From: Vandiemenella viatica
Lineage: Eukaryota; Arthropoda; Insecta; Orthoptera; Morabidae
Length of the DNA stretch: 64,000 nucleotides
Assembly (NCBI GenBank): GCA_031002005.1
Contig: JARYHS010013630.1
Location: 238,769,539 to 238,833,538 of the forward strand
Reading direction: 5' to 3'
Both the position numbers and the translations under genes were made by a program. Positions 6,188-48,545 of this stretch are shown in pieces. The notes beneath the pieces were generated by a model. That model worked only from the letters and a program-made list of their open reading frames with translations. It ran no database searches and was not told the origin of the DNA. How positions within the stretch are numbered: the first letter of the stretch is position 1; every line of letters begins with the position of its first letter.

Positions 6188-6193
6188 TTCGTA
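6188..6193. repeat. Target-site duplication, left (TTCGTA)
   Basis: Six bases immediately outside the left inverted repeat, identical to 19238-19243. Confidence 0.9.
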
Positions 6194-6338
6194 AGTAGTA
6201 GGACTAAGCCGGAGCTGGCGTCTTTTTTGACCTTGACCTTGAAGGGGGGTGGTGGGGGGGACCTCCCTCCCCCTCCCTCTCCGGCGGGCTTTTGAATAAG
6301 CCAATCAGCGGACCGTTAGTTCATTTGGTGGCCGCTGG
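6194..6338 (+). repeat. Adintovirus left terminal inverted repeat (cut by gap)
   Basis: At least 145 bp are nearly identical to the reverse complement of 19093-19237, with about a one-base length difference in the G/C-rich purine-pyrimidine tract and a mismatch at the gap edge. It contains G-run and C-run blocks (about 6245-6285). The true inner end is hidden by the N run. Confidence 0.9.
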
Positions 6339-7338
6339 NNNNNNNNNNNNNNNNNNNNNNNNNNNNNNNNNNNNNNNNNNNNNNNNNNNNNNNNNNNNNN
6401 NNNNNNNNNNNNNNNNNNNNNNNNNNNNNNNNNNNNNNNNNNNNNNNNNNNNNNNNNNNNNNNNNNNNNNNNNNNNNNNNNNNNNNNNNNNNNNNNNNNN
6501 NNNNNNNNNNNNNNNNNNNNNNNNNNNNNNNNNNNNNNNNNNNNNNNNNNNNNNNNNNNNNNNNNNNNNNNNNNNNNNNNNNNNNNNNNNNNNNNNNNNN
6601 NNNNNNNNNNNNNNNNNNNNNNNNNNNNNNNNNNNNNNNNNNNNNNNNNNNNNNNNNNNNNNNNNNNNNNNNNNNNNNNNNNNNNNNNNNNNNNNNNNNN
6701 NNNNNNNNNNNNNNNNNNNNNNNNNNNNNNNNNNNNNNNNNNNNNNNNNNNNNNNNNNNNNNNNNNNNNNNNNNNNNNNNNNNNNNNNNNNNNNNNNNNN
6801 NNNNNNNNNNNNNNNNNNNNNNNNNNNNNNNNNNNNNNNNNNNNNNNNNNNNNNNNNNNNNNNNNNNNNNNNNNNNNNNNNNNNNNNNNNNNNNNNNNNN
6901 NNNNNNNNNNNNNNNNNNNNNNNNNNNNNNNNNNNNNNNNNNNNNNNNNNNNNNNNNNNNNNNNNNNNNNNNNNNNNNNNNNNNNNNNNNNNNNNNNNNN
7001 NNNNNNNNNNNNNNNNNNNNNNNNNNNNNNNNNNNNNNNNNNNNNNNNNNNNNNNNNNNNNNNNNNNNNNNNNNNNNNNNNNNNNNNNNNNNNNNNNNNN
7101 NNNNNNNNNNNNNNNNNNNNNNNNNNNNNNNNNNNNNNNNNNNNNNNNNNNNNNNNNNNNNNNNNNNNNNNNNNNNNNNNNNNNNNNNNNNNNNNNNNNN
7201 NNNNNNNNNNNNNNNNNNNNNNNNNNNNNNNNNNNNNNNNNNNNNNNNNNNNNNNNNNNNNNNNNNNNNNNNNNNNNNNNNNNNNNNNNNNNNNNNNNNN
7301 NNNNNNNNNNNNNNNNNNNNNNNNNNNNNNNNNNNNNN
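6339..7338. other. Assembly gap (1000 N)
   Basis: Exactly 1000 undetermined bases; the length is probably a placeholder. It lies between the left inverted repeat and the first visible adintovirus gene. Confidence 0.99.
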
Positions 7339-7405
7339 TGTTCTGTGGTGGGTACACAAACACCCTCTTATTCTGTGTCGTTGAAGTTCTCCCAAACTTG
7401 TCCAT
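7339..7405 (-). pseudogene. Start of a minus-strand adintovirus gene, cut by gap
   Basis: Minus-strand frame beginning at an ATG at 7405, reading MDKFGRTSTTQNKRVFVYPP before it enters the N gap. It starts 33 bp after the ATPase stop, as the next gene of a minus-strand operon-like row. In insect relatives a gene at this position encodes a fibre- or tail-like protein, but only about 22 residues are visible, so the function is a weak inference. Confidence 0.4.
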
Positions 7406-7438
7406 GGTTGCAATGATGTCAGAAGACAGTGTGCGCAG

Positions 7439-8069
7439 CTATTTATTTAAAAATGAATCAAATCCGTTGCGATATCTTCCATGGTACATGTCGCAATCTT
7501 TGTCAATAACCAAAAATCCATGTTTACAATCATTCCAGCAGTACCCACATAGGTTCTTAAACTCCTTGAACGTCATGTCGGTGTTGACGTGGTCGTTGTA
7601 AATGTGTTTGAGATTCATATCATCCTGTTTAAAGATTACTATCAAGTTAGATTGTCTCTAACCAACTGTTTCGGTATACGGCTATATGTCTGACACAAGT
7701 AAAAAGAATCGACTGATCTGTGCCTGCCCATGCAAAAAGTAATCTCGTATATTATTCTGCTTCTCACACGAAACATCATCAAACACAAACACAGAATTAT
7801 GTAGAGCTTCACTTGGAGGAGGTACACTTGATTATCACTAAATGTCAAATACTGAATTTCTTTAATGGGTTCTAATATTTTTCCTAGTAACTGATACTTT
7901 GGTTGGTACAACGACTTTGAAAACACGTATACATTTTCAAATCTAAGACCATTGGGGTGTTCCAGCAGGGACAGCACAAGATTTGTTTTCCCACAATTTG
8001 ATGGACCACACATTATTGCTCTCACTGTCTCAGGGAACAGAGGTCCGTTCTTCTTCCGTCTAGTATTGT
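7439..8069 (-). pseudogene. Adintovirus genome-packaging ATPase (FtsK/HerA, A32-like), main part
   Basis: This is the motor ATPase that would drive viral DNA into the preformed capsid. On the minus strand it shows a P-loop GPSNCGKTNL (near 7985-8015), then NGLRFENVYVFSKSLYQPKY, and in another frame the Walker B strand VFVFDDV (near 7770-7790). Then come ICMGRHRSVDSFYLCQTYSRIPK-type residues (frame of 7642-8025, near 7675-7740) and the C-terminal part NLKHIYNDHVNTDMTF in the frame ending at 7439. Frame changes occur near 7810, 7755 and 7650, so as read it is broken. Its first codons lie 6.3 kb away at 14409-14471, separated by the inserted LTR element. Length without the insertion (about 230 codons) is normal for the family. 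Confidence 0.85.
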
Positions 8070-8778
8070 TGTAGCGGGCTCTTAGTATATATTATGCCGT
8101 CCGTTACTTATTCGTCAGGATGGATAAGTCGTAATGTGGTCACTGTGAGCGTTAGCCAGTTTTTACTTACTTGGGGCGTGTCTGCTGCGGCTCCCGTTCT
8201 TGGTACTTCCGTCTCGGCTTTGGCTATCTTACTTAGGCTATGTACCTGAACCTGGATCTTACTGACTTGCACTAATGAAAGACACTAAGTGCGTACATAG
8301 TTTTATTCTTTCACTGCGGGCTGTTACATTCGTCCATTGGCCACGAGCAGGACTCCAAGCACTTGGTAATATAAAAGATTGATGGACTTACATTGGTATG
8401 GCAGATCAGCTGACTAGCGGGCAGAGCTGGCCTTCGTTCCCCTCGATGTTTAACGCAGCATAGTGGCTGCTTAGTCACTCGAACTTGGCTTGACCGACTT
8501 CCCCGACTTCGAGCCTCGGTGAGCTCGCGCTTATATTTCGTCAGTTGCGTACTCTGTCCCGTTCTAAGGGCAATCAACTGACAGCTAGCGTTCTCGAAGC
8601 TTCTACACGAGCCCAGTTTCCATAACTATTGCTCGCCGACCTGGATTTATTGCTGAGCTGTCTTGCGACATCCCACGCCAGGCGCTTACTGCCAGTGAGT
8701 GCCGCCGCTCATACATTATCATTATAAATATTTTCACATCTCCCAAAATATACTGTAATTATTAAAACGGTCCATACA
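8070..8778 (-). repeat. 3' LTR (left copy) of nested retrotransposon
   Basis: About 95% identical by eye to 13683-14408. Most differences are one-base deletions in this copy (for example near 8099, 8437, 8461, 8500 and 8636), unlike ordinary LTR divergence, which should be mostly substitutions. Confidence 0.9.
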
Positions 8779-8793
8779 ATCTCTCCCTCCTTA
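8779..8793 (-). other. Polypurine tract of nested retrotransposon
   Basis: The plus strand reads ATCTCTCCCTCCTT; on the minus strand this is a purine run abutting the 3' LTR, where plus-strand DNA synthesis is primed. Confidence 0.7.
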
Positions 8794-9339
8794 ATCGAAG
8801 ACCAGCTTTGTCCCCAAAGCTTACTACTCCTCCATTGTTGAGGTTACTCACTAACTAGTCTAGTATACATGATTCGTGCTTGGATTCTTGCTTCGGGCTT
8901 ACAAAGTTATAGCAACATTCTTTTATAATCGCAAATGCTTTATGGTGTGGCGTCCAATCCTGTATAACAACAAAATCAATTCTCGTTAAAATCATAAGTA
9001 TAAAAGACAAGGCAATAAAAGAGAAAAATAATCATTTGACAAAACAATAGAACATCAATGACAAAATTACAGTTCCGATTTAGTTGTGCAGTTTTCAGTG
9101 TCCTTAGCACTATTCTTGCCAGAAGATGTTAACGTCATTACAATTTATTCTGCGGTTGGTATGGGTCTCTCAATATCAAATCTTGTTAATTTTTATACTA
9201 TCCATTTGTAAATTAACAGTATCCAAATTATTACAATAGATAATGATACAATAGTTGTTAAATCACAGTGGTTACCATGGTTTTGTGCCTTGATTGTAAT
9301 TAAACTTGAGTTTCTATGGCTGCTATTGATTGATTATAT

Positions 9340-9771
9340 TTAATTGAATCCCTTGGTTGTTGCAAATGTTTTGATAATTCTGTGCTCAAGATTGCGGGAT
9401 TTGTTTGATTTAATTCCACTAATTCGGACTAGGGTATGTTTCTTTACTGAAAGTAGGTAACACGTATTTTTGACACGACAAATAGATATGAATAATGGTT
9501 TTATGCAACACTGGTATCTCAACGTCAAATGAGGTGAGATTTTGAAAAGATACATCAATAGGTTAAATCCAGTATCCAGCTGCCGACTGTACTCCCATAA
9601 TTCTCTGAAATTTATCTGAGCCACAATGGACCAAACTAATGGCGAATGAATAACATTATCTTGCTTGACAAACATTATACCACTCTTAAGGGGTGTGACT
9701 TGATAACATTGTATTGGGACCCTGCCCAGTGAAAGAATTAGTACTACTATTAAACCCTTAAAACGCAACAT
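9340..9771 (-). pseudogene. Env-like fragment of the nested LTR element
   Basis: A minus-strand frame of 143 codons begins with a hydrophobic signal-peptide-like segment (residues 5-22, rich in L, I and V, ending near a cysteine). It continues into a segment with SGIMFVKQDNVIHSPLVWSI and VAQINFRELWEYSRQLD, features I associate with envelope proteins of insect gypsy-type elements. Such proteins are normally several hundred residues with a fusion segment and a C-terminal anchor; neither is present, so this is a 5' fragment followed by decay. Its position just before the polypurine tract supports the call. No function remains. Confidence 0.5.
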
Positions 9772-9779
9772 TATTCTTC

Positions 9780-12700
9780 TAATAACACCCTTGGAGAAAT
9801 TATCTACTAAAGGTTACACACCAATGTTACTATACGATACTACAAATTCCCTAATAGATAAAGTTCTTACTACCTAAAATATTTTTCACCAAGTCTTAAT
9901 CTAAAAGGTCTGTAATAATGTTTTGATACTTAGAGATTACAACGATGTGCTGGTCACTGCTACGCAAGCATTGTCAGCGCAGCCCCTCGCTGTGTCGACA
10001 TACGTCACGCCGCGTGGTCAGCAACACACTTCGCCGCTCGACCTACGGAACATTACACCACAGCGAAATTCTGCACATCGGTGTTTACATGACACAACAG
10101 CTGTGTCGGACAACAATAAACACACAACTTGCTATTGTATACACAGCACTTGACACAGTTTTTAACTTGCACTTAGGTTCACTCAAAAAAAATTCTCTTG
10201 ACTAGAATTCAACACAGATTCGTTGAGTCGAAACCAACCCAGTTTACAAGGTTTCATTAAAATTTTAATTCACAATTCTGGTCTAACTTTAAATTGCTTT
10301 ACTTATTGACATTAAAATTCTTACTTTGCAATTACTGTTCCACTTCCTCCTTGGCAGCACCTTTGCAGGGTTAAAACAATCATTATTTACAGCTTATTTC
10401 CCAGGTAACTACTCTTATTTCTTAAGTTATCTGAATGATTCTGTTGCAGTGATGTGTCCCTTTCCCACTTTCTTTTGGTGGTATTACGTGTTTCCCTTTT
10501 ACTCATTTGCTTGTTTCCCTCAAATAACATGTGATTACATTGTAATTGGATTTGCCCTTCGCGCGAGATTAAAAGCGTTATCTTATTTGCTTTTGTTAAG
10601 GAACTCCCATTTGAACTGTTTTATCGATTCTCCTTTTAAAGATCCTTATCCATATTTCATACTTAAAGGATTAATTACAGATTATCCCATAATTTACTAT
10701 CATCATACGTGAATGAGTTACCAACTACTACCCAAATAGTGATACACTGACATTGAACCATACTGAGTGAATTAACTCGAGGATAATTTTCTAGAAATAA
10801 ACATGTGTTTAGGATTGTGAACAAGTAACAGAGACCTAGAATGCTGGTTTGGTCTCCAAAATTCAAATTGACCTACTATGTCATTTAAAGAGATCATTTA
10901 TCACTCCACCTGCCCTATTTCTTTAATACTACCCCGGGTTTATTTTACGTTCCTTGAGACAACCTGCACTCAGGACCCGTCGCTTCATAGGCACAGCCGT
11001 ATTCTCTTTTTGACCGTCCTATTAACCAACAATACTCTCGTACCTGCAGCGTAAAGTATGAAAAACACGTCTTCACATGACATCGTATGCCTAATTTTCC
11101 ACATGCCAAAGAAATCAATGAAAAATCTATTTTCTAATTAACAAGGATTTAATACAATGCAGACTTACGCAAAAGGATGTAATTATAGAAGAAATTACGT
11201 TTAACAGAGAAAGAAAGACAAACAAAATGGTATGGCAGAGATGCAAAACATTTACATTAATTCTACGTTCATCGTACCAAATGTTATACTTTTTCTTAGT
11301 AATTTAGCTTGCTCGGACTTAGAAATATTATCCTTTAGTGACTTAGTAGTTAATTCCATGTTATTGTGGCTTAGCATTCGTTAGACTTAACTTTTACGCT
11401 TCATTATACTCCTCGTGGCTTTACTGTTTATTACTCTTGTGGCTGGTTCTAAACTTTATTTCTTCCTGGTGCTCATTACAATATTAACACCACATTAATT
11501 CCCACAAAAATAATCCCAAAAGGTGAGTTACTTTGATCGCTCCTATCCACCCCTGGGTATCATATTTCTGATATCAGTTTAAAATCTTTTTACTCCCTGC
11601 TGCATTCCCTTACAGCCTTAAGGGTATCACAAATCATTCCCTGCTACAGCCTTACGGGTTACCACACATTCCCTGCTGAGCCTTACGGGTATCACATTAT
11701 CATTATTTCCACAATTACACATTTAATCACTTAATCCACATGCATGTCTTACTTCAACACTTTTATGGCCATATTTATTCAATTGCTACATTTACATCTC
11801 AATATTCGCGACTTTACTACGATAGAAGACTACTGCCTCACATCGCCTGAACGATGAAGAACATGTCTCCGTATCATTACTGCATTATTTTTATCTTTCT
11901 TAAGAACTTCCTAGGGCTATTAGACAATCACGCAACTCCGATCTACATCAATCACATCACACTATTCCCTGTGAACGAGCTTGACCTTGGACGGGTCGTA
12001 TAGCAGAACACACATTCCCGACTCCTCATACTGGCGTATTTGTTAGGCGGTTTGGATCCGTATTGCGGTAACTATTTTAGGTGCGCATTTCCAAAAAATC
12101 ACCTGAATCCTCGTATGGCCCTTAAAACGATCGCAAAGGATACACTCGCGTGATTTGCACTAAGCAACCGTTGAATACTCCAAGTACGGATACTCAATCC
12201 ATCGAAAATTTACGCTACGGTCTGCCCTTCGATAATATTTGCCACATTTTCAGAAATTCTGCCACGTTTATACAATATTTCGCCACAATGCTTTACATAG
12301 GATATTATGCCACTACAATGAATTTCACACACATTACTATTTCAGTTTCTTTTACATTTAATTGCAATCATTACTTTACTGTATAAAATCTCCAATTTTA
12401 GTCCTACCACAAATCTTAAACCAAACTATGCACAAGTATGCCTAAACTTTCATAGAGAGTCCGTGAAACAATGAAATTACTCCGCGCGTATTTTTATTGC
12501 ACCCGAGGGACTGGTAGACATCTCTTACTTTTTACCACATAACATTACTACACATCAATACAGAATTTTGCATGAAATATTTAATTTAATTTTTATTTTA
12601 AATACTGTTTCTCACATCCGATTTTATCTGGTACCGAATTTTGATTCTTAGCAGCACTTAAATTTCTCTCTTATTCTACATCACTTATAATACAATTCCC

Positions 12701-13180
12701 ATTAAGCCATTCCATTTCCCCTTCGAATTTGTAAAGTGCGCATCTATTTCCCGTTTCAACTTTACAGTGCGCTTGTCAGGGTTGCCACCGTACGCAACTG
12801 AGATTTTACACATTGTATACTTCTATTCGTCAGTTAATAACTTTAATTGAAGGTTATTCACAGGCAATAAGATTCAAGGTTTTGTGCAACACTAGTCGCA
12901 GGCTAAACATCTTATAACATAGAATTTCATATTACATTCCAACCCTATTTATACTATTTTAGCAGATGTACCCCGCAAATCCAAATAACCGACTTTCAAG
13001 GTTTCTTAATTTAATATCTGAAAACATGCTAAATACGTTAATCGATCACGAAGATCCCAAATGTCTTCCCATGATTGCCCGAAAAAGTGATGCCACGGGA
13101 TAAAAAGTGTACTAACTAACTGCAAATTTTTGGTAATAAATCTTACACAGCTTCCTGTCTGTTCTATTCTGAGACATACT
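9780..13180. other. Decayed interior of the LTR element
   Basis: AT-rich, no supported gene. A short imperfect tandem repeat is at about 11600-11700 (units around ACAGCCTTACGGGTATCACA, three copies of about 33 bp). A hydrophobic plus-strand frame at 10326-10712 looks incidental. Confidence 0.6.
11600..11700. repeat. Imperfect short tandem repeat (about 33 bp x 3)
   Basis: Three copies of CAGCCTTAnGGGTATCACA-like blocks, each followed by ATTCCCTGCT. Confidence 0.6.
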
Positions 13181-13184
13181 GGGT

Positions 13185-13457
13185 TTAGTTTCCACTCACC
13201 GAGTCTATCACCACCGTCGTCCAAAAGCTGCTATCACTCGTCGTCGACGGCCGCCACAGGTCCGCCGCGCCGCGCTCGAACTGCTGGCCGGTGACCCTCC
13301 CGTCGTCTCGCGTCAGCAAGGCTCCGCTCCTCAGCTGCGTCAAACCGCTCCCATTTTTCTGGAACAGCTGACTACTGCGTAACGTATTTGCGCCGACCTC
13401 CTTCTTCACCCGACCCGCTAGCACAGCCGTTTTACTTTCTTTAACCAATGCCATCAT
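13185..13457 (-). pseudogene. Possible gag-region remnant
   Basis: A GC-rich minus-strand frame (90 codons, KESKTAVLAGRVKKEVGA near its start) lies about 230 bp inside the 5' LTR, where gag would begin. No zinc knuckle or capsid motif is visible, so the assignment rests on position only. Confidence 0.25.
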
Positions 13458-13682
13458 TTTAAATGCCCAATAAAAAATTAAGTTCTTGTCTTCATAGTTA
13501 CTGTATACAATTTCAGTGATCTTCTGTAGCCAAAGAAATTACCTTCGCCACCAAGCAGTTTTAAGTTACTTAATTTTCCGTCCTTCTTCCTTTCCTGGCT
13601 CTAAATTTTTCTGACACCCGGTTGCGGTGTCCTTTTTACCCGTTTTCATCTCTTCCTGGCTCCAATTTTTCTGGCAGCCAAT

Positions 13683-14408
13683 TGTAGCGGCTCTTAGTAT
13701 ATAGTTTATGCCGGTCCGTTACTTATTCGTCAGGATGGATAAGTCGTATGTGGTCACTGTGAGCGTTAGCCAGTTTTTACTTACTTGGGGCGTGTCTGCT
13801 GCGGCTTCCCGTTCCTGTACTTCCGTCTCGGCTTTGGCTATACTTACTTAGGCTATGTACCTCAACCTGGATCTTACTGACTTGCACTAATGAAAGACAC
13901 GAAGTGCGTACATAGTTTTATTCTTATCACTGCGGGCTGTTACAGTTCGTCCATTTGCCACGAGCAGGACTCCAATCACTTGGTAATATAAAAGATTGAT
14001 GGACTTACATTGGTATGGCAAGATCAGCTGACTAGCGGGCAGAGCTGGCCTTCGTTCCCGTCTCGATGTTTAACCGCAGCATATTGGCTGCTTAGTCCAC
14101 TCGAACTTGGCTTGACCGACTTCCCCGACTTCTCTCGAGCCTCGGTGAGTTCGCGCTTATATTTCGTCAGTTGCGTACTCTGTCCTCGTTCTAAGGGCAA
14201 TCAACTGACAGCTATCGTATCTCGAAGCTTCTACACGAGCCCAGTTTCCATAACTATTGCTCAGCCGACCTGGATTTATTGCTGAGCTGTCTTGCGACAT
14301 CCCACGCCAGGCGCTTACGGCCAGTGAGTGCCGCCGCTCATACATTATCATTATAAATATTTTCACATCTCCCCAAATATACTATAATTATTAAAACGGT
14401 CCATTACA
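13683..14408 (-). repeat. 5' LTR (right copy) of nested retrotransposon
   Basis: 726 bp, the better-preserved copy; it pairs with 8070-8778. On the minus strand it begins TGTAATGGACC and ends CCGCTACA. Confidence 0.9.
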
Positions 14409-14471
14409 TTGTTGCCGACAGAATCAACATTACTCACGGGCAATGTGTCTCGCTGTTTGACAAAACTTCAT
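14409..14471 (-). pseudogene. N-terminal codons of the packaging ATPase gene, severed by LTR insertion
   Basis: A minus-strand ATG at 14469-14471 opens a short frame (MKFCQT...). A neighbouring frame reading TLPVSNVDSVGNN runs into the TTGT target duplication and continues in phase on the other side of the LTR element at 8065 into the segment before the P-loop. A one-base frame change lies near 14450. The retrotransposon therefore landed within the first 30 or so codons of the ATPase gene. Confidence 0.65.
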
Positions 14472-14527
14472 ATTGACAAGTTTAGGTGGTTGCTCCGGCT
14501 ATATATAGGCGCGCGAACAACTAAAGT
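14472..14527. promoter_or_regulatory. Divergent promoter with palindromic TATA box
   Basis: Only 56 bp separate the ATPase ATG (minus, 14471) from the PLA2-protein ATG (plus, 14528). CTATATATAG at 14499-14508 is a self-complementary TATA box that could serve both directions. It is followed on the plus side by GC-rich GGCGCGCG. Use in both directions is inferred. Confidence 0.6.
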
Positions 14528-14932
14528 ATGTTAGTTGGTAACAATGCCTCTACGAGGAAGAAGAAGAAGGGTCGTGGCTTTTTAAACAAGCTCATCGACA
14601 AGATGCCTTTTGAGGCGCATATACCTACATACCAGTTTTGTGGTCCCGGTACTAAACTGGAAAAACGGTTGGCACTTGGGCAGAAGGGTATCAACCCTAT
14701 ATGCAGCCTGCAGGAACACGATATTGCTTATGCACAGGGGGCAGATAGAGCTGAAGCAGATCGGATACTCGTTGAGAGGGCTGCAGATAGAATGAAGGCT
14801 AAAGATGCAAAGTTTGGTGAACGTGCAGCGGCATTCTTGGTTAATAGGGCCATGCGTGCCAAGTTAAAGTTTGGCGGAGGTGTTAAGAAAAATAAACCGA
14901 AGAAAAAAAAGAAGGGTGGTATTCTGCCATAA
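14528..14932 (+). CDS. Phospholipase A2-domain capsid-associated protein
   Basis: 134 codons, intact. A lysine/arginine-rich N-terminus (about residues 10-25) is followed by the PLA2 calcium-loop-like segment YQFCGPGT (about residues 36-43) and the catalytic-type helix CSLQEHDIAYAQ (about 60-71, with the His-Asp pair). The C-terminus is again very basic, rich in K and G. PLA2 domains of this type occur in parvovirus capsid proteins and in adintovirus/Polinton structural proteins, where they are thought to help virions leave endosomes. In relatives this domain can be fused to the hydrophobic segment that here starts in another frame at 14926, so a one-base frame change near the stop is likely. 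The ATG at 14528 is 20 bp downstream of the TATA box. Confidence 0.8.
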   Translation: MLVGNNASTRKKKKGRGFLNKLIDKMPFEAHIPTYQFCGPGTKLEKRLALGQKGINPICSLQEHDIAYAQGADRAEADRILVERAADRMKAKDAKFGERAAAFLVNRAMRAKLKFGGGVKKNKPKKKKKGGILP

Positions 14933-15153
14933 TACCTTTATTTGCTGGCTTGTCAGCTGCTGGTGCTTTAGCAGGCGGGGTGGCTAATGTCGTCAAAGCT
15001 GTTAAAGCAGCGAAAGAGGCGAATAAGCAGTTGACTGAGGAGAAACGACACAACAAAACGATGGAAACACTTGCAATGAGGGGTAAAGGTCTATATTTGA
15101 AGCCATACCGGAAAGATGGGTCTGGATTAAAAAAAAGTCGGTTCAGCCGCTGA
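14926..15153 (+). pseudogene. Hydrophobic/basic small structural protein (likely continuation of the PLA2 protein)
   Basis: An open frame without its own ATG overlaps the end of the PLA2 frame. It has a glycine/alanine-rich hydrophobic segment (LSAAGALAGGVANVVKAV), a lysine/glutamate helix (KAAKEANKQLTEEKRHN) and a C-terminal KGLYLKPYRKDGSG. This resembles the membrane-active or core-type minor proteins coded in Polinton/adintovirus capsid modules. The lack of a start and the overlap suggest it was one polypeptide with the preceding frame; a separate downstream protein started from a non-ATG codon (TTG at 14950) is less likely. Confidence 0.6.
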
Positions 15154-15487
15154 CGGACGATGACATACGTAAGCATGTAAAGCGTTTGCGCATACCCATT
15201 TTTCGTGGTGTTTTCATGCGTGACACATTACCCAAAAAATTCGTGAACGTGAATGTGGAATTGTGAACTTGGATAGTGCTAAAAGTGCTGGAACACATTG
15301 GGTTGCGTACATCAAGTACAAAGATGGTGTAGTTAAATACTTTGACAGTTTCGGTGACTTACTTCCTCCATTGGTTACAACGATACTTTGCAGGAACAGA
15401 ATACAATACAATGTGCAGCAACACCAGAAGTTTGGCACACATGTATGTGGACATTTGTGTTTAAAATTCCTGTATGAAAATGTATGA
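15115..15487 (+). pseudogene. Adenain-type maturation cysteine protease (frameshifted)
   Basis: This is the protease that trims capsid proteins during virion maturation (clan CE, adenovirus protease-like). The N-terminal part (PLTDDDIRKHVKRLRIP, then IFRGVFMRDTLP) is in one frame to about 15240. The catalytic part follows in the next frame: the histidine in GTHWVAYI, the acidic residue in KYFDSFG, and a glutamine-rich stretch leading to the cysteine in HVCGHLCLKF near the C-terminus. All catalytic positions are present. The frame changes at the A-run near 15232-15237, so a homopolymer error in the assembly is possible. No good ATG is visible for the N-terminus; ATG at 15115 is a candidate but needs another frame change. 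The stop is at 15485. Confidence 0.8.
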
Positions 15488-15522
15488 CATCAGTCTTGAA
15501 CGAACCTTGGACAAGATAACAC

Positions 15523-16206
15523 ATGTCTGTAACACTCTGCTTGTCAGGCACCAGTTCAGTCTTGGGCTGTGATTACTTCCCACCAATAGATTTGAGCCAA
15601 GGTGATTACACAGTCGGTTTGGTTGACTTTCAGACTTACAATTCGATTCCAAATATAGACGAATCAAATTGTAAATTTCATTACTCGAAGAATAAAGTGA
15701 TAGTCATACCCACAGGATCTTACGATATTGACGATTTGGCTAATTATTTGGTTCGACACACTAAAAACGACAAGCTAGTAATTAGAGCAAACAACAATTC
15801 GCTCAAGTGCGAGATAGAAACACCTGTGGAAATTGACTTCTCTAAACCAAACTCAATTGGATCTCTCCTCGGATTTTCGAAACGTGTGTTAAAGCCTGGA
15901 TTTCATACATCAGACTACACTGTGCAGATCTTCAAAATTAACGCCATAAGAATTGAATGCAGCATATGTACAGGAAATTACGTCAACGATAAGCTGGGAC
16001 ATACACTACACGAGTTTTTTCCAACAGTCCCGCCAGGGTACAAGATTGTGGAAGTACCCGCTAATGTCATATATCTACCCATCACAGTGAAAACTCTCAG
16101 TAATATCAACGTTAGAGTTGTCGATCAGGACGGCAATTTAGTGGATTTCAGAGGAGAAACCATCACTCTCAGACTACATATAAAAAAGAATGGGCGCTCG
16201 TTATAA
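15523..16206 (+). CDS. Penton-like minor capsid protein (single jelly-roll)
   Basis: 227 codons, intact, the best preserved virus gene here. It starts at ATG 15523, 36 bp after the protease stop. The N-terminal half has the strand pattern and motif DLSQGDYTVGLVDFQTYNSIP. The middle has GSYDIDDLANYLVRH and IGSLLGFSKRVL. The C-terminal end, NINVRVVDQDGNLVDFRGET, is the turn and last strand typical of Polinton/adintovirus penton-type proteins that fill the icosahedral vertices. Its place between protease and hexon genes agrees. Family membership is by recognition of motifs and position; the jelly-roll fold is family knowledge, not seen directly. Confidence 0.8.
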   Translation: MSVTLCLSGTSSVLGCDYFPPIDLSQGDYTVGLVDFQTYNSIPNIDESNCKFHYSKNKVIVIPTGSYDIDDLANYLVRHTKNDKLVIRANNNSLKCEIETPVEIDFSKPNSIGSLLGFSKRVLKPGFHTSDYTVQIFKINAIRIECSICTGNYVNDKLGHTLHEFFPTVPPGYKIVEVPANVIYLPITVKTLSNINVRVVDQDGNLVDFRGETITLRLHIKKNGRSL

Positions 16207-16316
16207 GAAGAGGCGGACTCACAACTGTCAGTCGTGAACCAACAGTGAAACGATTAACACCTGAGAACGTGCTCTTCCTACAGTCGTTAGGCTATACAGT
16301 TAAAAGTCATGGATGA
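16190..16316 (+). pseudogene. Tiny overlapping ORF between penton and hexon genes
   Basis: ATG at 16190 overlaps the penton end by 17 bp and opens a basic stretch (MGARYKKRRT). One base out of phase, a frame open from about 16221 to the stop at 16314-16316 reads LTPENVLFLQSLGYTV and overlaps the hexon ATG (16309) by 8 bp. The two halves would make a protein of about 42 residues if the one-base frame change near 16210-16220 is an error or decay. Overlap with both neighbours suggests tight packing by coupled translation or a shared transcript. I recall similar LTPEN...LQSLG tails in insect relatives, but the function is unknown. Confidence 0.45.
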
Positions 16317-17512
16317 TGTGCTAGACATAACTTCCAGTGTGGAGTTTGACGAGTCGGTGACGCGCAAACAATATTTGAGTCACCAGCCGCATACGCCAGC
16401 CACATTTAATAACAATGATGAAATCCGAATACCGATTCAAAACCAAGATACATATACACTACCATGCGAAAGCTACTTGCATATGGAAGGAAGATTCATC
16501 AAGTCAGATGGTTCAGGAGCTACAAATTCAATTACCACATCCAATGCATTCGCTTTTCTGTTTGAGGAAATTCGATATGAACTTAATGGAACTGAAATTG
16601 ACCGAAATAGAAATGTTGGTATCAAGCACATTGAAAACGCTTATTTCTGCAAGCCCCCCACAAATGGGCGTGTTGATCAATGCAGGATGGGAGCAACGCC
16701 CTCCTGGAAATGGCTACTTTGATGTATGTATACCACTGAGTATGCTCTTGGGTTTTTGCGAAGACTTTAAAAAGATACTTGCAAATGTAAAACAAGAACT
16801 AATATTGATTCGAGCTAGGGACGATACAAATTCATATGTACAAGCCAATCCAAATCCTCAGGAAAGTAAATTCACCATCAGCAAACTGGCATGGGTGATG
16901 CCTCATTTGCAAATAGGTGAACGAGAAAAGCTAGCGCTGCTTAAGATTGTAGACAGTGGGAAACCACTTCGCATTAATTTCAGAAGCTGGGATCTGTTGG
17001 AGTACCCGTTGCTTCCAATCAGCAAGACTCAAATTTGGTCTTTGAAAACATCAACACAATTGGAGAAACCTAGGTTCGTGGTTCTGGGATTTCAGACAAA
17101 CAGGAAACGGAATGCGGAATTAAGTGCAAACATCTTTGACAACTGCAATCTTACCAATGTCAAGGTGTTCCTAAATGATGTGGCGTATCCATATGAGAAC
17201 ATGAATTTGGACTTTAAGAAAAACCGAACCACGTTGTTGTATGATATGTATGCAAGATTCCAACAGTCTTACTACGAACGAGACCATCCTTTACCGCTAC
17301 TAAAACGTGAAGAATTTATAGAAACTGCACCTATCGCCGTAATTGACTGTTCACACCAAAACGAGTCTGTTAAAACGGGGCCTGTAGACATTCGTGTCGA
17401 GTTTGATAGCAGTGAGAATTTTCCTGCTTACACCGCTGCATACTGCCTGATCTTGCACGATCGTGTTGTAGAATACGTACCTCTAACAAGTGTCGTGCGC
17501 AAGCTGACATAA
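16309..17512 (+). pseudogene. Hexon-like major capsid protein (double jelly-roll), one frameshift
   Basis: This is the main shell protein of adintovirus/Polinton virions. The first frame (ATG 16309 to 16722) gives MDDVLDITSSVEFDESV through FEEIRYELNGTEIDRNRNVG. From about 16620 the sense continues in the next frame to the stop at 17510-17512, with VLINAGWEQRPPGNGYFDVC, LNMLLG-type SMLLGFCEDFKK, INFRSWDLLEYPLLPISKTQ, CNLTNVKVFLNDVAYPYENM, LYDMYARFQQSYY, VIDCSHQNESVK and AYCLILHDRVVEY. Total about 400 codons, close to a full-length protein, so a single-base change near 16618-16625 is the only visible lesion. It follows the penton gene, as usual in this group. Confidence 0.85.
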
Positions 17513-17546
17513 AATCAAGTAGCAGAGAGTCTTGTCAACCATTACC

Positions 17547-17987
17547 ATGCCGACCATCTTCCTGGACGCACAGGGATTCACGAAGAAGGATGGCGGGTTT
17601 AATTTCAAAGAAGTTGCCTGTGTGTGTAACACGGTCTGACAAAACTATCTCTACACATTGTATTTCTGTATCATCACCATCGCGTGGAGGTAATGAACCA
17701 TCAGTTAGATGGCTAACACATAATTACCATGGAATACCTTGGGATTCTGATTGGCGTTTCTCTCAGCAAGATGTGCTCTATACTACATGCAATAACCAAT
17801 GAGGATGATTCAATCATTTACGTTAAAGGACTGGAGAAGGCTCGATGGTTTACAGAAAATCATCATGAAGAAAGTATGCTACAATATAGAAGATTTAGGA
17901 TGTCCACCACTACGAGAACTCAAGAAAAATAATTTGAGAAAACTTTGTAAATTACATATATTTTGTAATAATATGTGTGCAAATTGA
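17547..17987 (+). pseudogene. Conserved adintovirus-associated protein of unknown role, broken in several frames
   Basis: Starts 34 bp after the hexon stop. ATG 17547 gives MPTIFLDAQGFTKKDGGFNF. A second frame near 17695-17740 reads VRWLTHNYHGIPWDSD, a third near 17815-17860 IIYVKGLEKARWF, and the first frame resumes near 17870-17987 with YNIEDLGCPPLRELKK. I recognise this spacing of DxQGF, NYHGxxWD, VKGxEK and DLxxLGCP from uncharacterised proteins that recur beside insect Polinton/adintovirus capsid genes. The acidic residues at these positions would suit an RNase H-fold nuclease, which is conjecture. At least three frame changes and a stop at about 17634 make it a pseudogene as assembled. 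An AATAAA signal follows at 18021-18026. Confidence 0.6.
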
Positions 17988-18020
17988 AAATGTATTTTTA
18001 GGTCGCCAATTGGTGGGCGA

Positions 18021-18026
18021 AATAAA
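18021..18026 (+). terminator. AATAAA polyadenylation signal after the capsid gene row
   Basis: GAAATAAAAGATTTT follows the last plus-strand gene by about 30 bp; a plausible shared 3' end for the plus-strand transcripts. Confidence 0.45.
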
Positions 18027-18372
18027 AGATTTTTTAAAAATATAGTACTATCTTATTATTTAATTAGGATAGGTGAAATGACAAAAGAAAAATCTGGTAA
18101 AATGATTTTATTTACTCACAATCAAGTACAATCAATTTTTTTAGTTGCAAAAGTCCAATTGTAGAACTATGGACTGAGGGTACTAATTATTAACACATAC
18201 GTCATCAACCCGCCGTCTGCTTAAATACATCAGTTTCCTTTTAAATCTTGTTCAACTTTGCGTTAACATCGTCATACACTAACAGCTTTTTATATGCTTA
18301 ATTTCTAACTTTAAACGTTCATAGACTAGTGTTGAACAGGGGCTGTATGACACTTCATTGACATGTACATTA

Positions 18373-18889
18373 TCAAAATGCAAATCTAGCAGGCCCATTC
18401 ACAGAACAACGGGGGTAGTCACGAATCACTTTCAGTGATAACGTATTCACAAACTCTTTGTAGTACTTGGTAACTTGATAATTCCAGAGCTTCATGGTGT
18501 TGATGGCACTGGTCACTGCAGGCAAGGCGTCGACCATGTTGCCCATGTTGATTCGCCGAGAAATACAACCATAGGCAGGAACAGCATTGTTGTAAAACCA
18601 TATAGTTTTCGCTCCAGCCACGGCTCGGGAAGAGATAGTGTGATTGCCTAGTGAGACACTCGTTTGCAAATGCTCAGTGTTGTTTGAAAAAGCCACCAAT
18701 TGTATAGACCAACTGTCTCAGTACATCCCACTCTTCATGTGTGAGAGTGACTTTTAATTGTAACCCAACTTTTCGAGTACAACTACTGGATTAAATTCCA
18801 ATTTAGGTGACAAACCAACAGTGATCCGCTTGGTGTCACTGCAGTTTTAACTTGTAGCATGTTGAAAACAGGAGAACCTCACTAGACAT
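18373..18889 (-). pseudogene. Minus-strand adintovirus gene of unknown role
   Basis: Minus ATG at 18889 starts MSSEVLLFSTCYKLKLQ. After a frame change near 18840 comes a stretch with KRITVGLSPKLEFNPVVVLE, then, near 18680-18755, LTHEEWDVLRQLVYTIGGFF, and finally the frame 18699-18373 with YCKEF-like KYYKEFVNTLSLKVIRDYPR. The pieces line up in order on one strand over 517 bp, so this was one gene of about 170 codons. It is convergent with the capsid row and lies just inside the right inverted repeat. A TATA-like CATAAATG lies upstream near 18945-18955 on the minus strand. I do not know the function; similar proteins occur in insect relatives of this element. Confidence 0.5.
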
Positions 18890-19092
18890 AGTGAACTGCA
18901 ATTGACGAGCGTCGACCGGGAACTGAGGGCGAGCTGGCTGGTGTAGTGGCATTTATGCGCTAGAAGTTCCTGTAGAGAGGCTGGTGACGTCACGCGAGCC
19001 ATGGAATGTCTGCGCAGATTGAGGTTTGTGCTTCCTCTGGGCGGGCGGTCAAGGAACTATCGTTTGCGCAAACGCGGCCGGTGCTGCCCCAC

Positions 19093-19237
19093 TAGCGGCC
19101 ACCAAATGAACTAACGGTCCGCTGATTGGCTTATTCAAAAGCCCGCCGGAGAGGGAGGGGGAGGGAGGATCCCCCCCACCACCCCCCTTCAAGGTCAAGG
19201 TCAAAAAAGACGCCAGCTCCGGCTTAGTCCTACTACT
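19093..19237 (-). repeat. Adintovirus right terminal inverted repeat
   Basis: Reverse-complement match to 6194-6338. It ends TAGTCCTACTACT at 19237, directly followed by TTCGTA. Confidence 0.92.
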
Positions 19238-19243
19238 TTCGTA
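19238..19243. repeat. Target-site duplication, right (TTCGTA)
   Basis: Identical to 6188-6193. Confidence 0.9.
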
Positions 19244-25505: not shown

Positions 25506-25770
25506 TCAATATTTTTTTTTATTATTATTATTTGATAGTGCTTTACGCCTCGCCGACGTCGGGGTAATTGGAGGCGGCGGGATGGGTCTGGGCAGAAAGA
25601 ACGGGAAGGAATTCGGCCATCGCCTTTTGAAGGAAGCAACCCGACATTCACTTGGAGTGATTTGGGAAAACTATGGAAAACCCAAATCTGGATGCCCGGA
25701 CGGGGATTCGAACCGGCGTCCTCCCAAATACTAGGCCAGAACGTTAACCACTCACTCACCACGCTCAGTG
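25506..25770 (-). repeat. tRNA-derived SINE, family A (near full length)
   Basis: Reverse orientation: poly(T) at about 25509-25518, CGTCGGCGAGG tail, body, and inverted B box GGGATTCGAACC at about 25705, ending in CCACGCTCAG. Confidence 0.85.
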
Positions 25771-34480: not shown

Positions 34481-35046
34481 AAAGTTGAGTCATAAAATAG
34501 GACTAATTACAAGATCACTCACACTGACACCAGATTTTTTCATTTCTTTTGTTACTATTATTGAATAACATATGTGCAAACTAACTTATAACAATCTCAA
34601 TACATATACGTAATATATTTGGTTCACAGTTCTGAAGCTTATTATGTTTCCACACTCCTAACAAGCATTGCTTCTTAGAAAGATCTTGTATTATGGGAAA
34701 AAAATGTATTGGAATTGCTTTACACACCCTCTATTCCATAAACGTTTGTGTGATATAAATATTTGCGTCGGTAGCTGACTGGAATTGAGCCCTAGCTATC
34801 CTCCCTAACCCATTCATATAATAGTGTTACACACAGACATATGTATGAACATCTGTAAGTCTTAGAATGGAATGCCGAGATACACTATTGAATGTCAGGA
34901 AACTTTTCTGTCACTAACGACAGAAATATCTTCTTACAATTGAAGAGTGCGGGGGAGGGGGGAAGGGGAGTTGAGGGACCATTTTTAAAAAATCTAGAAA
35001 GCAGTTTAATATACCGTAGTAGTCCTAGCTAAGATGGCAGTAAGGA

Positions 35047-35272
35047 CAGAGCGTGGTGGTGTAACGGTTAGCGTTCTGGCCTCGCATTCGGGAAGACGCC
35101 GGTTCGAATCCCCGTCCGGGCATCCAGATTTGGGTTTTCCAAATCACTCCAGGCAAATGCTGGGATGCTTCCTTCAAAAGGCATTGGCCGAATTCCTTCC
35201 CATTCCTTGCCCCCCATCCTTTCCCGTCTCTAAAGATCTCTCTGTTAAGAGACGTTAAGCAGTTAAAAAATG
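35047..35272 (+). repeat. tRNA-derived SINE, family A, with exact target duplication
   Basis: Full copy with A box GTGTAACGGTTAGCG and B box GGTTCGAATCCC, tail GACGTTAAGCAGTT and short A run. GGCAGTAAGGA flanks it at 35036-35046 and 35273-35283, an 11-bp target duplication from LINE-driven insertion. The body is slightly deleted (the CCATGGTTTCCC block is missing). Confidence 0.92.
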
Positions 35273-40468: not shown

Positions 40469-41468
40469 NNNNNNNNNNNNNNNNNNNNNNNNNNNNNNNN
40501 NNNNNNNNNNNNNNNNNNNNNNNNNNNNNNNNNNNNNNNNNNNNNNNNNNNNNNNNNNNNNNNNNNNNNNNNNNNNNNNNNNNNNNNNNNNNNNNNNNNN
40601 NNNNNNNNNNNNNNNNNNNNNNNNNNNNNNNNNNNNNNNNNNNNNNNNNNNNNNNNNNNNNNNNNNNNNNNNNNNNNNNNNNNNNNNNNNNNNNNNNNNN
40701 NNNNNNNNNNNNNNNNNNNNNNNNNNNNNNNNNNNNNNNNNNNNNNNNNNNNNNNNNNNNNNNNNNNNNNNNNNNNNNNNNNNNNNNNNNNNNNNNNNNN
40801 NNNNNNNNNNNNNNNNNNNNNNNNNNNNNNNNNNNNNNNNNNNNNNNNNNNNNNNNNNNNNNNNNNNNNNNNNNNNNNNNNNNNNNNNNNNNNNNNNNNN
40901 NNNNNNNNNNNNNNNNNNNNNNNNNNNNNNNNNNNNNNNNNNNNNNNNNNNNNNNNNNNNNNNNNNNNNNNNNNNNNNNNNNNNNNNNNNNNNNNNNNNN
41001 NNNNNNNNNNNNNNNNNNNNNNNNNNNNNNNNNNNNNNNNNNNNNNNNNNNNNNNNNNNNNNNNNNNNNNNNNNNNNNNNNNNNNNNNNNNNNNNNNNNN
41101 NNNNNNNNNNNNNNNNNNNNNNNNNNNNNNNNNNNNNNNNNNNNNNNNNNNNNNNNNNNNNNNNNNNNNNNNNNNNNNNNNNNNNNNNNNNNNNNNNNNN
41201 NNNNNNNNNNNNNNNNNNNNNNNNNNNNNNNNNNNNNNNNNNNNNNNNNNNNNNNNNNNNNNNNNNNNNNNNNNNNNNNNNNNNNNNNNNNNNNNNNNNN
41301 NNNNNNNNNNNNNNNNNNNNNNNNNNNNNNNNNNNNNNNNNNNNNNNNNNNNNNNNNNNNNNNNNNNNNNNNNNNNNNNNNNNNNNNNNNNNNNNNNNNN
41401 NNNNNNNNNNNNNNNNNNNNNNNNNNNNNNNNNNNNNNNNNNNNNNNNNNNNNNNNNNNNNNNNNNNN
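40469..41468. other. Assembly gap (1000 N)
   Basis: Exactly 1000 undetermined bases beginning inside a SINE copy; probably a placeholder length. Confidence 0.99.
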
Positions 41469-44445: not shown

Positions 44446-44675
44446 CCAGGCGTGGTGAATAAGCGGTAACGCTTTGGCCTTGGCATTCGGGAGGGCGAAG
44501 ATTTGACTCCCCGTCCGGCCTCCCAGGTTTCGTTTTTCCATGGTTCTTCGGAATCACTCCATGTGACTAATGGAATGGTTACTTCAAAAACCAATGGCCG
44601 AATTCCTTCCCGTTCCTCCACCTGTTCTTTCCCGCCTTTAATGACCCCGACATCGACGAGGTAAAATTAGTGTTC
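44446..44675 (+). repeat. SINE family A (diverged full copy)
   Basis: GCGTGGTGAATAAGCGGTAACG head, then CCCGTCCGGCC, GGCCGAATTCCTTCCCGTTC and tail GACCCCGACATCGACGAGG. Confidence 0.8.
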
Positions 44676-45755: not shown

Positions 45756-46032
45756 GGGATTACTGGAGATCGCGATTCCGCCAGGAATTGTCATTATAAT
45801 ACTACAGTGGTCAAACGCAAGACTCCACTATAAATTCTTCCCTAAGTACATTTAACGGTTTCACACTGGTCCAGGTTGTATTACAACCTAATTTGTGCTT
45901 GAAAATAATGGTCCAGGCTGTATTACAACGGAATTACTGCTTGATAATAATACGTCTTGCGACTGACTACATCAGTATTCCAACGATATTACTATATGTT
46001 GTTGTAGCGGAATCGCGATCTCCAGTAGACCC
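45756..46032. mobile_element. Foldback MITE, copy B, with 8-bp target duplication
   Basis: Starts GGGATTACTGGAGATCGCG and ends with the inverse CGCGATCTCCAGTAGACCC. Exact GCAGCACG duplication at 45748-45755 and 46033-46040. The inside holds two tandem forms of the GGTCCAGGxTGTATTACAACC block that copy A carries as an inverted pair. 277 bp, non-coding. The 8-bp duplication suits mobilisation by a hAT or P-type transposase. Confidence 0.9.
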
Positions 46033-47305: not shown

Positions 47306-48164
47306 TTGCGGCGTCACGTTTATCCTAGAGTCCCCTTGAGGTGTTTGTACATATTCCCCGTGTTTGTTGGGAAGCGGTCAAGCCCCCACCACTCCGGCCA
47401 TGCCCCCCCACTCCTCCGCCGGCCTGCTTCACTCCCATGCGTGGTAAAGGTCTCTTGCGTCGTCTCCATATTATTCCTTCCTCCATGCTAAAGACTTAAC
47501 AATTTAGCACATGGCTCTATGAAATCTTAACATGATTTATACCTTGCTAATCAAATTTTACCATTACTGGCCAAGGCCAACAAAATATATTAAGACATTT
47601 CTCACATAACGTATTACTTCAGTGAAACTCCACCCGTGGTTTCAAATTATGACCTTGTATGTTAAAGCCACTTTCCCTTCTATTCTTTTTATTCACTCTT
47701 TGCATAGTCCAGAGATTACCACCAGTTTAGCTGGCAAGATGCCAATGTCTACATTAATTTTATGCTATCATCAAATCAACATATGGAGAGTAAAATTACA
47801 AAATTAATAGCAATCATTCATGTGAGAAAACAAGGAAAGTAAATAAAAGAAGTTAACTTTCTTTTATTGATTCTAAAACAGCATAGTTATGTTTAATTTC
47901 TGTCTGATTCGCATTTTATGCTTTTCATTACGCTTCTTGGGACATGGTCAAGCTGCACATATTCTTCTTGGTTTCTGACTTCCTTATAAACATATTCAGA
48001 AAGAACTGGCATACAGTATTTCTTTCTTTTGGAGGAAATCGAGCAAGTCTTCTGAAAAATATTACATACTGTTGATACGAGTAATATATATTTCATACAG
48101 CATTAATTTAGAAAAGAAGGAACAATTTCCTTAAATATTTGTTCACAAACCGATGGTAGTGTCA
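47306..48164. other. Intronic, no gene recognised
   Basis: Nothing supported. Confidence 0.5.
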
Positions 48165-48545
48165 CAAACCCAAATCACTTCAAACGAATGCTGGGATGCT
48201 TCCTTGAAAAGACCATGGCCGAATTCCTACCCCGTCTCTTGCACATAGTCCCATTCTGACCTTTTTTTTGCATGCGGCTTTACGCCTCGTCGACGGCTAA
48301 GGTCATTAGAGGCGGGATGGGATAGGGAACAAGGAACTGGAAGGAGTTCGGCCATGGCCTTTATGAAGGAAGCATTCCGGCATTCGCCTGGAGTGATTTG
48401 GGGAAACCATGGAAAACCCAATCTGGATGCCCGGACGGGGATTCGAACCCACGTCCTCCCGTATGCGAGGCCAGAACGTTAACCGTTCATCCACCAAGCT
48501 CAGTCATTCTGCCTTTAAAGACCTCGACGTCGACGAGGCATAAGT
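48165..48545 (+). repeat. SINE family A fragment split by another SINE
   Basis: Body at 48165-48255 (CCAAATCACTTCAAACGAATG, CCATGGCCGAATTCC) and tail at 48509-48545 (CTTTAAAGACCTCGACGTCGACGAGG) are one plus-strand copy interrupted by the minus-strand copy at 48258-48505. Confidence 0.75.
48258..48505 (-). repeat. SINE family A, inserted in reverse into an older copy
   Basis: Complete reverse-orientation copy: T run, CGTCGACGG, body, inverted B box GGGATTCGAACC at about 48438, GTTCATCCACCAAGCTC end. CATTCTG-CCT repeats on both sides as the target duplication. Confidence 0.85.

Follow-up and report, generated by a model that had tools for sequence, protein, structure and literature searches.

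Polintons, also named Mavericks, are thought to replicate from protein-capped ends via strand displacement; to our knowledge, it has been little tested so far whether they exit from the chromosome in the form of free linear molecules capped by protein. Mirror-image molecules are encountered in two other systems. In adenoviruses, strand-displacement replication yields palindromic defective genomes that carry the same end twice. In yeast, a perfect-hairpin linear DNA, reportedly described by Kikuchi and colleagues in 1985 (EMBO J 4:1881), is said to be derived from a linear plasmid with a terminal protein. Here, we describe a Polinton found in a stretch of 64,000 nucleotides from the orthopteran insect Vandiemenella viatica (assembly GCA_031002005.1, contig JARYHS010013630.1; G000:C7729:238769539-238833538 in our coordinates), which is referred to as "the window", together with its relatives in the genome searched (3.72 Gb, 8965 contigs).

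The element, at positions 6194-19237, resembles insect Polintons/Mavericks, including those of the adintovirus type, in its inverted tips starting with AG, 6-bp target duplication, double jelly-roll hexon, penton and A32-type ATPase, while the PolB and rve integrase of such elements are found in its sister copies. Where this family departs from the insect Polintons/Mavericks known to us is in its palindromes, which account for much of the set of PolB copies assessed and in which one genome half is present twice. These palindromes share with the defective adenovirus genomes the mirror-image structure and the repeated end, but the latter are not chromosomal, whereas the relatives described here are known from integrated sequence and give no sign of packaging or interference. 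The yeast hairpin plasmid is likewise said to represent the mirrored half of a protein-primed genome, but it is cytoplasmic, not integrated into a chromosome, and without capsid genes or integrase. The reading that we favor, and regard as reasonably probable, is that the window harbors a damaged Polinton, the family of which includes palindromes that probably came from fold-back (snap-back) synthesis in the course of protein-primed replication, with the Polinton integrase as the likely agent of their insertion.

Mirror-image relatives and their insertion sites

An ordinary copy, i.e., a monomer, is found on contig C20 and measures ~13.8 kb from tip to tip. It has the order PolB, integrase, open reading frames (ORFs), ATPase, as do the three sisters of the window copy that were read upstream of the ATPase gene, where in all three PolB (rightward) is followed by the integrase and two ORFs (leftward), with the 3' part of PolB at the expected place. 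The C20 integrase matches PF00665 (rve; E=5.7e-16), and a homologue is present in each of the three sisters.

A PolB profile search of the genome gave 1591 candidates, of which 91 hits were scored, 89 without a stop in the match; because the scored hits are the best ones, the fractions of palindromes and monomers given below need not apply to all copies. A script identified 13 pairs of PolB hits less than 20 kb apart (26 of the 91 hits), all convergent and none direct. Since PolB is read inwards from the side of the left tip, these convergent pairs are left-left mirror images. The penton search gave 3114 candidates, and among the 150 scored matches (90-100% identical; 143 without an internal stop) four divergent pairs and one direct pair were noted by eye; the penton gene points towards the right tip, and the divergent pairs are therefore right-right mirror images. 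Inverted arms were seen in the sequence for seven of the 13 PolB pairs (C6490:180.0, C4537:228.6, C7:264.5, C6:27.75, C7:112.1, C1:187.3 and C7:103.1), while four were classed as palindromic from position and strand only. Among the 65 single PolB hits, 19 were classed from the 4 kb downstream: nine are palindromic (L050, L051, L053, L057, L058, L060, L062, L063, L066), six have monomer order (L055, L056, L059, L061, L064, L065) and four were assigned to neither class (L048, L049, L052, L054). Taken with the paired hits and C20, 35 of the 46 PolB copies assessed are palindromic, seven are monomers and four are unclassed.

Facing matches to the window tip, 11-14 kb apart, also led to palindromes, at C6:172.37, C4537:141.9, C1:131.87 and C7:129.2 Mb (in the pieces read); in the first three, with tips that resemble those of the window copy, no gene was recognized in these pieces. 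At C7:129.2 Mb (L024-L025), multiple offset matches indicate ~140-bp tandem units in the outer arms. The palindromes are ~11-17 kb long, with arms that are 90-100% alike where compared; as a control, the 44.7 kb of the window to the right of the element contain no inverted pair longer than 166 nt. The right-right palindromes carry capsid genes and the left-left palindromes two PolB genes. In some relatives, a single half of a protein-primed genome is thus joined to its own mirror image, and the two ends have the same tip.

Tips were sought at both ends of 15 palindromes. Both were visible in nine, and seven of these nine are flanked by exact 6-bp duplications:

ACTGCA, C6:172.37
ATCGTT, C4537:141.9
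CCAGCG, C1:131.87
TATAGT, C4537:228.6
AATAAC, C6:27.75
AATAGC, C7:112.1
CTCGGC, C1:187.3

At the remaining six (C7:129.2, C7:182.8, C3982, C7:103.1, C7729:123.96 and C5804), runs of ambiguous bases (Ns) or tips outside the stretch read precluded a judgment. The symmetry ends at the tips and does not run on into the flanks. The exact duplications imply that these seven elements were inserted as palindromes. Furthermore, an identical centre is found at several loci, which indicates that some palindromes spread as palindromes.

Turning points and the origin of the palindromes

The right-right palindromes at C7:182.8 and on C7206 turn at a central loop of 30 bp that is flanked by CTAAACTGAGG and CCTCAGTTTAG. 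The same 11-bp hairpin (CTAAACTGAGG, 30 bp, CCTCAGTTTAG) is found inside PolB of ordinary copies, where it is exact in two of three and differs by one change in the third; it adjoins, just upstream, the stretch YMDTDS, which we take to be a PolB motif. On C3982, one arm tracks the monomer L061 up to a point and restarts reversed 1.4 kb away, with a 6-bp inverted microhomology, TAAAGA, common to both sides of the junction. The palindrome at C7:129.2 has a centre that is 92-96% identical to the sisters of the window copy, with a loop of 54 bp. Judged from their sequence, these junctions are what self-primed fold-back synthesis would leave.

The left-left elements match monomers across PolB and the non-coding sequence after it, and the match stops at a breakpoint next to the integrase gene. 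The spacer between their arms is absent or nearly so in L027, L029, L051, L053 and L057, and other left-left centres have spacers or repeats. Neither integrase nor capsid genes were found in the left-left pieces read, in which the arms are incomplete. The ratio of non-synonymous to synonymous differences (pN/pS) in the 3' ends of PolB is 0.20 in the left-left type vs 0.19 in monomers, as obtained from seven left-left-type sequences (including the unclassed, frameshifted L052 and excluding L050, L062 and L066) and six monomers, all picked by high score, which favors intact genes. Variants of PolB are common to left-left copies and monomers.

The replication and integration steps that we infer from this observed architecture are as follows. 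A displaced strand would fold at an inverted match, whereupon its 3' end would prime synthesis that runs until the same tip is reached again. The resulting mirror-image molecule, having two usable tips, would be replicated. The molecule would then be integrated, by an integrase supplied in trans where its own is missing, and some palindromes would subsequently multiply as such.

A number of observations weigh against fold-back synthesis followed by insertion. Two palindromes with both tips visible, C6490:180.0 and C7:264.5, have no 6-bp duplication, and none is found outside the tips of the monomer C20. For two PolB pairs, C7729:123.96 and C5804, there is no inverted match between the stretches at the expected tip distance. 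The junctions resolved are three only, and for that of C7:129.2 just one of three sisters has a 5-bp inverted match (TTACT/AGTAA). Approximately 1.1 kb at the centre of the left-left elements is absent from monomers, and a single fold-back of a monomer is therefore insufficient to produce them. When arms were compared by substitutions, the nearest relative was the arm's own partner for only eight of 20 arms; by BLAST score, the number is 12 of 20, with some centres cut imprecisely. This weakens the idea of a renewal of both arms with every round of copying. Finally, the palindromes are known here from assembled sequence, not from reads or extrachromosomal DNA.

The private 1.1-kb segment raises the question of whether the left-left PolB palindromes are fold-back products or an independent, always-palindromic element family that shares just PolB with Polintons. 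Centres common to several loci, arm-specific variants common to L028 and L060, and the constraint on the PolB ends (pN/pS 0.20) would all suit such a family. We nevertheless consider it unlikely, given that PolB and the stretch that follows match monomers until an abrupt break next to the integrase gene, that the PolB variants occur also in monomers, and that the right-right palindromes with hairpin junctions show fold-back to occur in this family.

It is highly improbable that the palindromes are fold-back artefacts of assembly or library preparation and that the family has no members other than ordinary Polintons. In favor of this view, several palindromes are located on small unplaced contigs, and the palindromes are known from assembled sequence, as noted above. 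In addition, five of eight tip loci (L001, L003, L004, L007 and L008) have N runs at most 1.7 kb inside the tip, i.e., in regions that assemble badly. Assembly seems to break close to these tips, which is what palindromes would cause. An artefact does not, however, account for arms that differ by up to ~10%, for symmetry that ends at the tips with exact 6-bp duplications outside in seven of nine assessable cases, for the same centres at different loci, or for the convergence of all 13 PolB pairs. Formation after insertion, by recombination or inversion between neighboring chromosomal copies, would be helped by the abundance of copies and would explain the two assessable palindromes without duplications, but we regard it as highly improbable because the matching duplications at the other seven and the centres common to separate loci require insertion as a unit there.

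The copy in the window

The features of the window copy are the following (coordinates in the window, strand, identity and basis):

6188..6193, no strand: left target-site duplication TTCGTA (direct reading)
6194..6338, plus: left terminal inverted repeat, readable part, starting AGTAGTAGG (pairing with right tip; genome-wide tip matches)
6339..7338, no strand: run of exactly 1000 Ns (counted in the sequence; true size open to doubt)
7442..8091, minus: packaging ATPase, 3' part, as overlapping open pieces 7442-7657 and 7645-8091 (PF04665 on 7645-8091; sister ATPase genes)
8066..8069, no strand: 4-bp duplication TTGT, left of the retroelement (direct reading, alignment)
8070..14408, no strand: nested long terminal repeat (LTR) retroelement, LTRs 8070-8778 and 13683-14408 (direct repeats, ends TGTA..TACA)
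14409..14412, no strand: 4-bp duplication TTGT, right of the retroelement (direct reading, alignment)
14525..14932, plus: phospholipase-A2-like ORF (PF08398, 23.1 bits, slightly below the cut-off of 23.9)
14896..15153, plus: small basic ORF, putative core protein, the label being a guess (no family above cut-off)
15224..15487, plus: candidate adenain-like protease ORF (H, D and C residues by eye)
15520..16206, plus: predicted penton gene, open, 228 amino acids (predicted structure; identical protein at seven other loci)
16291..17512, plus: hexon, i.e., double jelly-roll major capsid protein, frameshifted (PF21738)
17513..17981, plus: broken ORF, homologue of the gene after the hexon in C20 (tblastn)
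18262..18798, minus: remnant of an ORF, 36% identical to its homologue, a gene on the minus strand of C20 (tblastn)
18989..19237, minus: right terminal inverted repeat, ~249 bp common to other loci (the left tip, as far as it is readable, pairs with 19093-19237)
19238..19243, no strand: right target-site duplication TTCGTA (direct reading)

The original prediction, made from the sequence of the window, was of a complete-ended endogenous adintovirus or Polinton with a TTCGTA duplication. That the copy is of this type, with the exact 6-bp duplication at 6188-6193 and 19238-19243, is supported by the present analysis. Inverted-repeat tips are indeed found at both ends: 6194-6338 and 19093-19237, aligned inverted, show no substitution over ~143 bp and one internal indel. 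The 145 bp given for the repeat are the part readable before the Ns, where the pair differs at the adjoining end; compared across loci, the shared terminal repeat is ~249 bp. The proposed search of the assembly with the repeat showed that the tip recurs: it gave 681 candidates, and among the 40 matches that were scored, 12 span positions 1-143, a number that includes both tips of the window copy itself. Another 25 of the 40 do not start until position 55 or 57 within the window tip, and there is a second tip type that has the inner part in common with the window tip and a different outer end.

The virion gene set expected between the tips was also recovered. The A32-type ATPase family PF04665 is matched at 23.2 bits, just above the cut-off of 22.8, in a gene that is split by the nested LTR element, and the hexon frames 16291-16722 and 16379-17512 match PF21738 with E=6.9e-9 and 1.9e-109, respectively. 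For the ORF at 15520..16206, the predicted structure (mean predicted local distance difference test score, pLDDT, 90.1) has the mavirus penton as its best solved-structure match (E=1.2e-10), which argues for a penton. The adenain-like label of the ORF at 15224..15487 leans on a motif that we presume to be diagnostic, and a Pfam search with this ORF gave no match. The hexon protein has 1182 relatives at E<=0.001, and those named among the best 120 are from wasps, ants, a bee and sawflies, at ~45-53% identity; on sequence comparison, these relatives would fit insect Polintons. No hexon relative was found in one scan of viral contigs, and a PDB sequence search with the hexon gave no match.

Completeness applies to the tips, not to the interior, with its 1000 Ns, 6.3-kb LTR element and frameshifted hexon, and with neither PolB nor integrase recognized in the readable sequence by family profiles or homologue comparison. 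With a foreign retroelement and an N run inside, the copy does not define the whole unit, as had been suggested, and the 13-kb span was rejected as a natural unit because 6.3 kb of it are retroelement and 1 kb Ns. The N run is probably an assembly gap, i.e., a placeholder, and most likely hides PolB and the integrase because all three sister copies examined have both upstream of the ATPase gene; a family devoid of these two genes was rejected on the same ground. As these sisters have monomer order, the window copy is also likelier to be a monomer, with its left half behind the Ns, than a right-right palindrome. A second run of exactly 1000 Ns, at 40469-41468, is probably an assembly gap as well. 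Over 3.1 kb, the identity between the window and six close sisters is 96.2-98.2%. The Polinton in the window is an ordinary, damaged one, and its family is very abundant.

In the nested LTR element no coding domain was recognized. Its LTRs, of 709 and 726 bp, are 95.5% identical (BLAST), and their alignment contains 11 substitutions in 703 paired bases and 26 gap columns. The possibility that this insertion is necessarily older than the Polinton was rejected because the 4.5% difference consists mostly of indels.

Elsewhere in the window, a dispersed repeat in both orientations (25578-25769, 35042-35226, 44450-44617 and 48162-48508) contains a stretch resembling transfer RNA (tRNA), GGGGATTCGAACC, and looks like a tRNA-derived short interspersed element (SINE) family. 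Two related two-copy 42-bp tandem repeats on opposite strands (656-738 and 45867-45951) probably belong to one repeat family. A genome search with COX1 gave 114 matches from 504 candidates, many of them chromosomal, i.e., numerous nuclear copies of mitochondrial DNA. One COX1 copy from the genome, which may itself be nuclear, has its nearest matches in grasshoppers (92% at best), in line with an orthopteran host.

Implications for Polinton biology

We know of no palindromic form of Polintons, and a limited search of the open-access literature found no report of one; as far as that search goes, the palindromic relatives are new, while the window copy itself is of a known kind. The palindromes would constitute a new kind of non-autonomous derivative and are a likely reason for assembly breaks near Polinton tips. 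Strand-displacement copying of free molecules, followed by their integration, would be expected to leave just such scars, namely palindromes that are flanked by target duplications and turn at hairpins, and ordinary genome assemblies could thus be used to probe whether Polintons exist in a free form.

A more far-reaching interpretation, which we put forward tentatively and consider somewhat less probable than fold-back synthesis as such, is that a Polinton lineage has turned into self-complementary palindromic replicons, i.e., PolB-only mirror elements with a centre of their own that multiply and reinsert in palindromic form with an integrase borrowed from full Polintons, and that occur beside capsid-side mirror forms. 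If this were true, the chromosomes would record the hairpin genomes of a virus-like, protein-primed element, and these would in effect be satellites that had split off from a single genome.

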